Assembly (NCBI GenBank): GCA_943330745.2
Contig: CALQIX020000001.1
Span: 1-64,000 of the forward strand
From: Lishizhenia tianjinensis
GTDB taxonomy: Bacteria; Bacteroidota; Bacteroidia; Flavobacteriales_D; Crocinitomicaceae
DNA: 64,000 nt
Reading direction: 5' to 3'
Notes under the pieces: model-generated
Databases searched by the model: none
Told to the model about the DNA's origin: nothing
The model's input: only the letters and a program-made list of their open reading frames with translations
Made by a program: the position numbers and the translations under genes
In this document: positions 38,123 through 41,585 of the stretch, one piece after another
Numbering within the stretch: the stretch's first letter is position 1
How the letters are laid out: the number at the start of each line of letters is the position of its first letter

Positions 38123-38130
38123 TATATTTG
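38123..38130 (+). promoter_or_regulatory. -7 element of the structured RNA locus
   Basis: TATATTTG, an exact -7 match, sits 74 nt after the photolyase stop. A transcript would start near 38136, just before the first hairpin. Confidence 0.55.
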
Positions 38131-38135
38131 TTTAT

Positions 38136-38430
38136 CCTAACGAGGAAATCTTATCCATGACGATTTTTTAAATTAAAAAAATGTCAGGATAACCCTGATA
38201 AAATAGAATCTATTTTCATCAGCTCGTAGGGGAATACTCAATGGAGTATTTGGTTAATGTAAAAAAATAGCGTTTGCTAAACGTCCTGTGCCGTAAAAGT
38301 CGAAATTCTATGTAAGACAGGGAAGTTAAAGTGAAACGCTCATGCCATAGGCGTGGGCGTTGCTTTGCTTTGTCTTACTGGGCTTCGACTCCCATCGGTA
38401 CAAGCTAAGGCAACTGTCCCACGCTTTTTT
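38136..38430 (+). ncRNA. Candidate structured RNA, about 295 nt, family not recognised
   Basis: Between a consensus -7 element and a T-run terminator lies a segment with no meaningful ORF but five nested or successive helices. H1: TTATCC 38151-38156 with GGATAA 38187-38192, plus inner TGAC/GTCA. H2: 38196-38221. H3: AATACTC 38233-38239 with GAGTATT 38244-38250. H4: AGCGTTT 38269-38275 with AAACGCT 38334-38340, enclosing CCTGT 38285/ACAGG 38317. H5: GCGTGGG 38351-38357 with CCCACGC 38418-38424, with inner GTTGC/GCAAC, GCTT/AAGC and TGGG/CCCA. It does not fit tmRNA, RNase P RNA or a riboswitch class I know. It could be a trans-acting sRNA, or a leader of the LamG gene at 38480. Confidence 0.6.
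38351..38430 (+). terminator. Long bulged terminator arm of the structured RNA
   Basis: A 74-nt stem-loop with segments GCGTGGG/CCCACGC, GTTGC/GCAAC, GCTT/AAGC, TAC/GTA and TGGG/CCCA is closed by the loop CTTCGACT. Six T follow (38425-38430), then ATTTTTG. It would end transcription about 50 nt before the LamG gene. Confidence 0.55.
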
Positions 38431-38479
38431 ATTTTTGTAAAAACTCACTGTGGGACGAGTGAAACTAAAACTTTTAAAA

Positions 38480-39838
38480 ATGAAAAAAGTTATGTTTACA
38501 GCCTTTGCAGTTGGGCTTAGTTTAACTGCAAATTTTTGGGCGCAAGTACCAAGTTATGTACCAACAAATGGATTAGTTGGTTATTGGCCGTTTAACGGAA
38601 ATGCGAATGATGAGAGTGGGAATGGTAATAATGGGACAGTGAATGGCGCTACGTTGACAACGGATCGAAATGGAGTTGCGAATAAGGCGTATAGTTTTGA
38701 TGGGATTGATGATTTTATTGATTTTGTGAACAGTTCAGTGCCTACAGGTGTTTCTTCTAGAACGATTAGTCTGTGGTTTTATGTAATTAGTTATCCTCAA
38801 GACCAACAGGGATATTATTTCTATTCTCAAGGAATAACAACGATTCCGAACAGTGGTCAATCTCACAACCTTGTTTTGATTAGAAATAATTCAAATCCGA
38901 CAGCAGGCCCTATATATCTTGCTTACACTGCCTCACATTCGACTGAAATACAGGCAAATTTTCAACCAGTAATATCAAATTGGTATCATTTAGTTGGTGT
39001 GTACGAACAGGGGCTAGCTAAACTATTTCTTAACTCAAATTTATTATCGCAATTATCCGTTCCATTTTGGAATACTGCAAATAATAATTTCGTAATTGGC
39101 AGACGGGCAGATCCTGACGACTATTGTGAAGGCAAAATCGACGACATCGGCATCTGGAATCGGGCTTTAACCGAATGTGAAATTCAAGACTTATATAATT
39201 CCCAAATTAATTCTATAGCTGGTTCAATATCTGTAGCTCCAAACCCTGCTTCAATTGGTTCAAATGTAACCTTATTAACTGCTCCAAACTCAACCAATGT
39301 TCAGTGGCAAAGTAATCCGTCCAACTATGGCTGGCAAAATGTTCCAGCTAATTCAAGTTATAGTGGTGGAACAACAAATACATTAACTGTAAATAATGTT
39401 CAGTTGTCAAATCATAACCAACCTTTTCGTTTGATTGGTTCTAATGGAAACTGCACAGACACTTCCAACATTGCAACTATCCAAATTGCTGATACGTGTA
39501 TTACAACTGTTTATGACACCCTTCTAACCACCGTAACTGACACACTCATCATAAACACGACTTTGAGTTTACCAGCACCAAACAACGAGAATACTATTTT
39601 AATTTATCCCAACCCAGCAAGTGATCATATTACTATTGATAATGGAAACTATGCAGCAATGGCTGGTTATACAATTAAAATTGAGAACAATGCAGGTCAG
39701 CAGGTCTTCCAAAGTGCCATCAACCAAGCGCAATTCTATGTGGATTTGAGTACTTGGTCAGGTAACGGATTGTATTTTGTTCACCTCATCGATCCGCAAA
39801 ATAATACGGTGACGGTGAGAAAAATTGTGTTGCAATGA
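38480..39838 (+). CDS. LamG-domain secreted protein with T9SS sorting domain
   Basis: ATG 38480 (452 residues) starts the signal peptide MKKVMFTAFAVGLSLTANFW; an upstream in-frame GTG at 38450 does not. Residues about 28-235 are a LamG/concanavalin-like domain: GLVGYWPFNGNANDESGNGN, YSFDGIDDFIDF and the closing GKIDDIGIWNRALTECEIQ. An Ig-like segment (about 240-335) and the C-terminal T9SS domain (about 375-452, ILIYPNPASDHITID) follow. Probably a secreted carbohydrate- or surface-binding protein. Its 3' end is duplicated downstream. Confidence 0.85.
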   Translation: MKKVMFTAFAVGLSLTANFWAQVPSYVPTNGLVGYWPFNGNANDESGNGNNGTVNGATLTTDRNGVANKAYSFDGIDDFIDFVNSSVPTGVSSRTISLWFYVISYPQDQQGYYFYSQGITTIPNSGQSHNLVLIRNNSNPTAGPIYLAYTASHSTEIQANFQPVISNWYHLVGVYEQGLAKLFLNSNLLSQLSVPFWNTANNNFVIGRRADPDDYCEGKIDDIGIWNRALTECEIQDLYNSQINSIAGSISVAPNPASIGSNVTLLTAPNSTNVQWQSNPSNYGWQNVPANSSYSGGTTNTLTVNNVQLSNHNQPFRLIGSNGNCTDTSNIATIQIADTCITTVYDTLLTTVTDTLIINTTLSLPAPNNENTILIYPNPASDHITIDNGNYAAMAGYTIKIENNAGQQVFQSAINQAQFYVDLSTWSGNGLYFVHLIDPQNNTVTVRKIVLQ

Positions 39839-40319: not shown

Positions 40320-41585
40320 ATGAAAGAGCAACACCCATATAAAGAAAGACTTACAGACAAAGAATTACTTAGAAAGTTAGATTCTGCAGGTGCATTGTTA
40401 ATTCGTGGTATGAAAGCGTGTGGAAAAACCGAATCAGCAAAGCAATATTCAAAGAGTGTTTTGGCATTGGACCAAGATGAACAAGTACCGTTATTAATGT
40501 CAACTTCGCCGCAGCGTTTGTTATTGGGCGAAACACCAAGACTAATCGATGAATGGCAGGAACATCCAAAAATCTGGAATTATGTTCGTCATGAAGTGGA
40601 TAAACGAAAAGAAAGTGCACAATTCATTTTAACAGGTTCAGCAAATCCGGAGGAGAGCGTTAAGATGCATTCTGGTGCAGGTCGTTTTACGATATTGGAT
40701 ATGCGAACAATGAGTTGGCAAGAAATGGGTTATTCTACTGGGAAAATAAGTTTAAAAAAACTGTTTAGAGGTGAAAAAATAGACATCTACGATGAACCAA
40801 CTGACTTAGAATTCATTATTGATCGAATTATTACAGGTGGTTTCCCGGGGTTAATGAATAAAAACATTCGACAAGCGAGGGACATGAATAGAGCGTATGT
40901 TGATTTATTGGCAGAAGTAGACATGAGTCGTTTATCAAACACCAAACGTGACCCCATAAAGATTAAAAATTTATTGCGTTCATTGGCTCGAAATACAGCA
41001 ACAATGGTTGACATTAAAACCTTGGAAGCTGATATTCGTCAACGGGATTTCAAAGACATCTCACGCCCAACCATATACGACTACTTAGATGCTTTAGATC
41101 GTTTAATGATTACCGAAAATCAACCAGCATGGAGTACTCACATTCGATCTTCCTCTACTTTAAGAAAAGCAGCTAAACGCCATTTCACTGATGCGGCACT
41201 TGCTGTTGCAGCACTTGGATTGAAAAAAGAAGCTTTATTAAAAGACCTGAAATTTGTTGGATTTTTATTTGAGTCACTTGCTGTGCACGAATTGCGGGTA
41301 TACGCTCAAGTGAGCGATGCAAAAGTATATCACTATCACGATTCAAGTGGTTTAGAGGTTGATGCCATTGTGCAGAAATATAATGGTGATTGGTGTGCTT
41401 TTGAAATAAAACTTGGAACGGGTCAGATTGAAGAAGCAGCCAAGAGTTTAAAGAAATTTGTTTCTATTTTAGACACGAAAAGTGTAGCCTTGCCGAAATC
41501 ATTGAATATCATTACTGGAACAGGTATTAGCTATACGAGAAACGACGGAATTAATGTGATTTCACTGGCTTCTCTTGGTGCTTAA
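40320..41585 (+). CDS. AAA_14/DUF4143-type ATP-binding protein
   Basis: The 421-residue protein has a Walker A in LLIRGMKACGKTESAKQYS (about residues 22-40) and LIDEWQEHPKIWNYVR as Walker B (near 78). FILTGSANPEES follows as sensor 1. The DUF4143 part (about 195-400) ends in a nuclease-like VDAIVQKYNGDWCAFEIKLG, which resembles the conserved core of PD-(D/E)xK folds. Family members are common, mobile and of unclear role; links to toxin-antitoxin or defence functions have been suggested. It is preceded by a 23-bp repeat array and flanked by a gene remnant, fitting an accessory insertion. Confidence 0.85.
   Translation: MKEQHPYKERLTDKELLRKLDSAGALLIRGMKACGKTESAKQYSKSVLALDQDEQVPLLMSTSPQRLLLGETPRLIDEWQEHPKIWNYVRHEVDKRKESAQFILTGSANPEESVKMHSGAGRFTILDMRTMSWQEMGYSTGKISLKKLFRGEKIDIYDEPTDLEFIIDRIITGGFPGLMNKNIRQARDMNRAYVDLLAEVDMSRLSNTKRDPIKIKNLLRSLARNTATMVDIKTLEADIRQRDFKDISRPTIYDYLDALDRLMITENQPAWSTHIRSSSTLRKAAKRHFTDAALAVAALGLKKEALLKDLKFVGFLFESLAVHELRVYAQVSDAKVYHYHDSSGLEVDAIVQKYNGDWCAFEIKLGTGQIEEAAKSLKKFVSILDTKSVALPKSLNIITGTGISYTRNDGINVISLASLGA

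Follow-up and report, generated by a model that had tools for sequence, protein, structure and literature searches.

The window analyzed here, a stretch of 64,000 nucleotides from Lishizhenia tianjinensis, contains about 295 nt (38136-38430) between a DNA photolyase gene and a LamG gene that a sequence-only reading had described as a structured RNA locus of unrecognised family, too large and complex for a simple leader. This raises the question whether the segment encodes an RNA of its own or belongs to the gene behind it, and what its structure might do.

A structured RNA between photolyase and LamG genes

Pfam supports both neighbors, the upstream DNA photolyase as well as the LamG protein. 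Folding of the + strand of 38136-38436 yielded -104.5 kcal/mol compared with -66.9 ± 4.9 kcal/mol for 100 shuffled sequences (z -7.6), none of which was as stable, while a z-score of -5.8 was obtained for the - strand. The claim of a structured RNA was thereby borne out, as conservation and covariation in relatives, which had been suggested as a check, were both found as well (see below). The long-range pairs and the T-run (38425-38436) are present, and the -7 element is an exact one (TATATTTG, 38123-38130). No + strand ORF of at least 40 amino acids lies fully within the segment and a 55-codon GTG frame overlaps its 3' end, in agreement with the proposed lack of a meaningful ORF. The T9SS-domain gene expected about 50 nt past the end starts with the ATG at 38480, 49 nt after 38430, and Por_Secre_tail was found in its product.

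The genome of the window harbors two more close copies and one distant copy of the element. In a first alignment of 11 copies, drawn from five genomes that belong to a single genus, the common part comprised 38262-38430 plus the stretch on to the ATG. Regarding the extent of about 295 nt, the segment is indeed structured, but only the core at 38262-38430 is conserved in the ten other copies first compared, together with a hairpin at 38445-38462 beyond the proposed end. About 100 nt of the proposed 295 (38155-38253) are an insertion peculiar to the window copy, of which no second copy was found in the window's genome; in the C3 sister copy the promoter directly adjoins the core. The family is described as a structured RNA of roughly 170-220 nt. 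The window copy has the following parts (R1 and R2 are the two covariance models introduced below):

38123-38130, + strand: -7 promoter element TATATTTG (TAnnTTTG, Bacteroidota -7 type), by direct reading
38135-38146, + strand: short 5' hairpin UCCU-AACG-AGGA (UCCC-AACG-GGGA at the equivalent spot in sister copies)
38155-38253, + strand: copy-specific insert of ~99 nt with local hairpins, ends approximate, missing from the C3 sister copy
38262-38430, + strand: conserved RNA core, model positions 1-167, with covariation (181.3 bits with R1, 161.6 bits with R2)
38269-38278, + strand: segment 1, the 5' strand of P1 (partners 38409-38413 and 38421-38425; alternative partner segment 2)
38298-38304, + strand: loop L1 (AGTCGAA), 5' strand of the loop-loop helix (partner 38384-38390)
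38335-38346, + strand: segment 2, 5' strand of the apical helix P4 and putative antiterminator (partner 38350-38361)
38350-38359, + strand: segment 3 (GGCGTGGGCG), which pairs with segment 2 in the rod but with segment 4 in the terminator
38380-38393, + strand: local hairpin GGG-[L2]-CCC, with L2 at 38384-38390; its third pair covaries (z 12.3)
38414-38420, + strand: P1 bulge CTGTCCC, second pseudoknot partner of the downstream hairpin loop
38418-38425, + strand: segment 4 (CCCACGCT), 3' arm of the terminator and 3' strand of P1
38425-38436, + strand: T-tract of the terminator, conserved in position among copies
38445-38462, + strand: downstream hairpin, whose loop GGGAC (38452-38456) pairs with GTCCC (38416-38420)
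38480-39838, + strand: LamG/T9SS gene, proposed to be regulated (ATG 38480-38482; Laminin_G_3 and Por_Secre_tail by Pfam)

Judged from the -7 element, the transcript is expected to start at the 5' hairpin (38135-38146). Behind the LamG gene, the window contains an AAA_14/DUF4143 ATPase gene (40320-41585, + strand).

Distribution in Bacteroidota

A covariance model (R1) was built from the 11 copies and matched 12 of the 86 genomes of the genus and 22 of the 299 genomes of the order. A second model (R2), built from 48 matches, detected the element in 110 of the 395 genomes sampled from the class, covering 66 of 196 genera, and in 37 of the 296 genomes of a phylum sample, six of these lying outside the class. 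The number of carriers within the genus was still 12 of 86 with R2, with 36 copies. As a model-free check, 257 billion bases of named genomes were searched with a pattern that fixes 25 bases around three segments, which gave 43 stretches. All 41 of them that carry Bacteroidota titles were confirmed by R2, while the remaining two, from a Lysobacteraceae bin and from Streptomyces, were not. Flavobacterium, Chitinophaga, Pedobacter and Capnocytophaga are among the named carriers. No phage or plasmid sequence matched the element in a BLAST search.

For the analyses described below, 212 copies were collected (sets A6, A7 and A8). As 117 further places were picked by hand from among the matches listed in the class and phylum searches, these copies are not a random sample. 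Set A6 corresponds to an effective number of ~64 sequences at 85% identity; it does not include L047, L062 lies below its cut-off, and a few copies stop at contig ends. Antisense self-matches (12 of 61 rows) were dropped. At two further places (G000:C25:121-156, L004, and G014:C139, L013), the promoter and 5' hairpin of the module occur without the RNA core and are apparent relics.

The rod fold and the loop-loop helix

The RNA can fold into a rod of 53 base pairs. In 94 sequences, 93.6% of its cells hold standard pairs compared with 69.5% after shuffling, a number that comes, like the other pair counts of the rod, from an alignment fitted to the structure model, which favors the rod. Double changes were found at 46 of the 53 pairs, and the covariation score was 0.649 compared with 0.09-0.11 for slid partners. 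Among the pairs outside the loop-loop helix, 1195 G-U but only 181 A-C combinations were counted in the 212 copies, and therefore the + strand RNA is the selected molecule.

The loop-loop helix between L1 and L2 is far stricter. It was paired to 99.8% in the 94 sequences, with zero G-U, and in the 212 copies (A6 columns 47-53 with 167-174) 1475 Watson-Crick pairs were counted together with 3 G-U, 2 A-C and 4 other combinations. Its sequence varies freely, with 91 different 7-mers, and the other helices taken together do admit G-U. A kissing interaction of two hairpin loops would be the simplest explanation for this strict Watson-Crick pairing. The top covarying pair outside the rod, 164:177 (z 12.3), closes a local hairpin GG-N-[L2]-N'-CC that encloses the second loop. 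This pair, the helix between segments 3 and 4, the T-tract and the second pseudoknot described below were not built into the covariance model.

A competing putative terminator helix and a second pseudoknot

A bulged terminator arm with a T run had been proposed for the 3' end. The end is indeed terminator-like, but the terminator is formed by a competing helix between segments 3 and 4 and not just by the P1 arm. This helix is paired to 98.3% and shows double changes at 6 of its 8 pairs. It has 7 or more pairs in a row in all but 10 of the 212 copies (202 copies). Complementary swaps include GGGGUGGG/UCCACCCC, GGCACGGG/CUCGUGCC and GCAUGGG/CCCAUGC. The helix crosses or overlaps bases of P1, P2, P3, P4 and the loop-loop helix and thus excludes the nested rod. 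A T-tract was found in 189 of the 212 copies compared with 30 of 210 control windows (23 copies are without it by the criterion used), and the T fraction is 0.77-0.95 at positions 3 to 8 behind the helix against a background of 0.30. A G+C-rich stem, a U-tract directly behind it and a gene farther downstream make up the layout of an intrinsic-terminator attenuator, which is present here. It had been considered that the T-run is peculiar to close relatives, as distant copies read CTGATTT; this was rejected, the T-tract being conserved with a small offset. Likewise, a doubt on the terminator owing to the bulged P1 was dropped once the helix between segments 3 and 4 was found.

Segments 1 and 2 are also able to pair (91.9%). 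In the window copy, the rod (-66.7 kcal/mol) was compared with the two-hairpin fold (-52.2 kcal/mol), and the 3' half alone forms the terminator hairpin (-34.4 kcal/mol). With a difference of 14.5 kcal/mol in favor of the rod in the window, any switching has to be kinetic or assisted.

In many copies, the P1 bulge can pair with the loop of the hairpin that lies beyond the terminator, in front of the ATG. When the bulge was compared with the downstream region of the same copy, a score of 12.84 was obtained versus 11.10 ± 0.14 for shuffled partners (211 of the 212 copies), and complementary swaps such as CAGUUCC/GGAACUG, GAGUCUC/GAGACUC, GACCCC/GGGGUC and CGAGCCU/AGGCUCG occur. Among the 211 copies, this second pseudoknot was not seen in those of the methyltransferase and SusC types.

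Gene context and promoter

The next ORF lies on the same strand in 199 of the 212 copies and on the opposite strand in 9, and 4 copies have none. A start codon 45-55 nt past the core is the commonest spacing (74 of the 199 codirectional copies); the ORF caller is crude and some distances below 10 nt are wrong starts. In the first set, the gene was readable in ten of the 11 copies, the eleventh (G014) stopping at a contig end, and, counted from the start of GTCCCACGC, the start codon lies ~62 nt downstream. The ten genes share one kind of signal peptide, and nine of them also the same LamG beginning. Of 211 copies, 153 have the motif TAnnTTTG in the 110 nt upstream of them, compared with 17.0 ± 3.6 for shuffled sequences and with 15 of 209 for a control stretch. 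With this orientation and the constant spacing of the first copies, the idea of a free-standing locus beyond a simple leader did not hold; instead, the RNA is, as far as can be read from its position, the leader of the LamG/T9SS gene at 38480.

The downstream proteins have no common theme. A Pfam scan of 144 of them, from which most LamG-type proteins, those below 75 amino acids and most of the own genus were excluded, revealed 131 families, none in more than 12 proteins: TonB plug domain (12), type III methyltransferase models (8), DNA methylase domain (7), response regulator domain (4), sigma-70 region 4 (4) and RibD_C (3). Because the genes lack a theme, one metabolite as signal is not suggested. 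The design of the 3' part tracks the gene type: long spacers precede SusC-like and sigma genes, with start codons 220-380 nt distant in SusC-type copies, and a short hairpin adjacent to the ATG precedes methyltransferase genes, the start codon following after 22-26 nt in most copies of this type. In one small genome (G627), seven copies with promoter, core and hairpin in common stand in front of unrelated genes. The fourth LamG paralogue of the window's genome (G000:C26:47369, L275) has a short leader without the RNA and, as one of four paralogues does without it, the RNA module is optional.

The LamG/T9SS protein encoded at 38480-39838 and its paralogues are nearly identical in the signal peptide and the first 50-60 residues and diverge in the rest, resembling in sequence a mosaic family of surface proteins. 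In a subgroup of copies (L097, L106 and L179), a small ORF of ~70-95 codons lies behind the RNA, followed in L097 and L106 by a response-regulator gene; no Pfam match was obtained for the small protein of L106.

A putative transcription attenuator

The RNA is almost certainly a conserved cis-acting leader of some kind. With moderate confidence, we propose from the sequence features that it works as a transcription attenuator. It looks built to act in a riboswitch-like manner, two incompatible folds deciding on transcription of the gene behind. The computations show that the element is conserved, codirectional with the next gene and set at a preferred spacing from it, that it has a promoter and a T-tract, that both folds covary and that there is a second pseudoknot. 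In the proposed four-segment switch, pairing of 1 with 2 and of 3 with 4 (terminator) would alternate with pairing of 2 with 3 and of 1 with 4 (rod, antiterminator). RNA polymerase would start at the TAnnTTTG promoter and make the 5' half first. If this half stays folded on itself (1:2), segment 3 would be free to pair with segment 4, and the terminator with its T-tract would end transcription. If the 5' half engages the 3' half instead (L1:L2, P2, P3, 2:3 and 1:4), the rod would withhold segment 3 and permit read-through. In the read-through RNA, the loop of the hairpin before the ATG could then compete for segment 4 by pairing with it, and might in this way fix the rod in place or modulate translation. 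From this arrangement we infer that switching between the folds takes place in vivo, with the rod as the ON state, and that the choice is made by a ligand, a protein or some other general signal; it might also be set by the speed of transcription. Only attenuated transcription would be expected to yield a discrete RNA of ~295 nt. Points against an attenuator are the greater stability of the rod in the window, the 23 of 212 copies lacking a T-tract, the 10 of 212 lacking a 7-pair helix between segments 3 and 4, the second pseudoknot not being seen in the methyltransferase and SusC types, the LamG paralogue at C26 without the RNA, the restriction to 12 of 86 genus genomes and the themeless downstream genes.

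Part of these observations could be accommodated by a leader that acts exclusively after transcription, on translation, mRNA stability or ribosome recruiting, with the T-tract as a mere spacer. The near-constant distance of the start codon (45-55 nt for the largest group of copies, 22-26 nt for most of those of the methyltransferase type) and the hairpin with a covarying pseudoknot between core and ATG would suit such a role; a covarying G+C-rich helix that abuts a conserved T-tract is, however, the signature of an intrinsic terminator, and SusC-type start codons lie 220-380 nt away, so that this explanation appears rather unlikely. An independent trans-acting small RNA that stands before genes by chance would equally have its own promoter, a terminator-like end and a strong structure, but it would explain neither the 199 of 212 copies codirectional with the next ORF and their preferred spacing nor a second pseudoknot that reaches past the terminator to sequence by the start codon, and we regard it as improbable.

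The processive modification of RNA polymerase by an antitermination RNA, without any ligand sensing, might be considered by analogy, as a polymerase-directed element would fit downstream genes that are themeless and in many cases accessory (methyltransferases, surface proteins). Against it, many targets are short single ORFs, and the link to the polymerase is one of analogy. Because the RNA carries its own terminator, read-through is moreover already settled within the leader, which weakens this explanation, and its chance is estimated to be just as small as that of a trans-acting RNA. Least probable is a repeated DNA palindrome, for instance a mobile element of the REP or MITE type, whose RNA would have no function. 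The scattered multi-copy occurrence (12 of 86 genus genomes), the seven G627 copies with common flanks before unrelated genes and the existence of a core-less promoter relic are reminiscent of such elements. The excess of G-U (1195) over A-C (181) is nevertheless an asymmetry of RNA, the orientation depends on the neighboring gene (199 same, 9 opposite, 4 without ORF), promoter and T-tract are conserved, and features outside the palindrome covary. For the attenuator, an extension is proposed tentatively, as one possibility among several: a phylum-wide switch that reads one general signal, e.g. a nucleotide messenger, and forms a portable promoter-plus-switch module, set repeatedly before accessory genes of Bacteroidota that are not related to each other. 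Its targets would be surface proteins, methyltransferases, receptors and regulators, and the loop-loop helix would keep the fold of each copy private.

Relation to known RNAs

In line with the description as an unrecognised family, Rfam 15 gave no match over the element in the window, neither at the gathering score nor at E-values up to 10. Further loci were scanned at the gathering score (15 + 20) and with permissive E-values (12 + 8), and no credible match over the element was obtained. Ligand-sensing riboswitches with terminator platforms combine a conserved 5' UTR core with mutually exclusive terminator and antiterminator, and one core can carry varying 3' platforms. The RNA resembles them in its conserved structured core in 5' UTRs, in the mutually exclusive and covarying folds of its expression platform (segments 3:4 versus the rod) and in its varying 3' platforms. 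It is unlike them in that no Rfam riboswitch model matches it and its target genes share no pathway; target genes tied to one metabolite were absent among the 131 Pfam families of the 144 proteins. Attenuators of the trp-leader type pair segments 1:2 and 3:4 or, alternatively, 2:3, with 3:4 as terminator. The same four-segment logic with a terminating 3:4 helix is found here, but the fold competing with it is a rod that comprises 53 model base pairs and has a loop-loop helix. A conserved leader peptide was not seen in an unsystematic look at the RNA. In the cobalamin riboswitch, side loops emanate from a junction, and the loop of a hairpin farther downstream pairs with the core. Both traits recur in the RNA, with different sequences and partners and without a match in cmscan.

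The Pedo-repair RNA (RF01715; Weinberg 2010, PMC2864571) is of similar length (211 model positions) and occurs in Pedobacter, a Bacteroidota genus. Its model did not match R2-positive loci at permissive E-values, which is weak evidence, since it matched no genome above the cut-off (0 of 149 class genomes); R2 does not recognize its one weak match, which lies in a Pedobacter genome. Pedo-repair may be a narrow member of the RNA family. Flavo-1 RNA (RF01705) is likewise a widespread Bacteroidota motif of unknown function, but comprises 76 nt; its only match in the scanned loci was at L078 (1053-1128), ~370 nt upstream of the core.

A literature search covering article texts did not find the RNA described, and passages of PMC2864571, PMC9723704, PMC7366714, PMC11109978, PMC8632094 and PMC8040213 hold no description of it. 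According to PMC9723704, F. psychrophilum has 64 structured 5' regions, and some copies may be among these. Palindromic Bacteroidetes candidates of 80-132 bp are reported in PMC8040213. As no Rfam family fits and text searches returned no description, the RNA is called an apparently new family of a known kind, with the lack of a gene theme and the strict loop-loop helix as unusual traits. That an RNA carried by over a quarter of the class genomes sampled is absent from Rfam 15 marks a large gap among the catalogued bacterial RNAs. The gene-adjacent switches can be tested in named organisms, the pairing rules being sufficient for the design of mutants, and the signal, once found, could reveal joint control of surface, defence and nutrient-uptake genes in Bacteroidota.

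Elsewhere in the window, a SAM riboswitch (RF00162; 996-1102, - strand, 85.6 bits) and an S15-Flavobacteria ribosomal leader (RF03161; 16742-16808, + strand, 61 bits) were detected.
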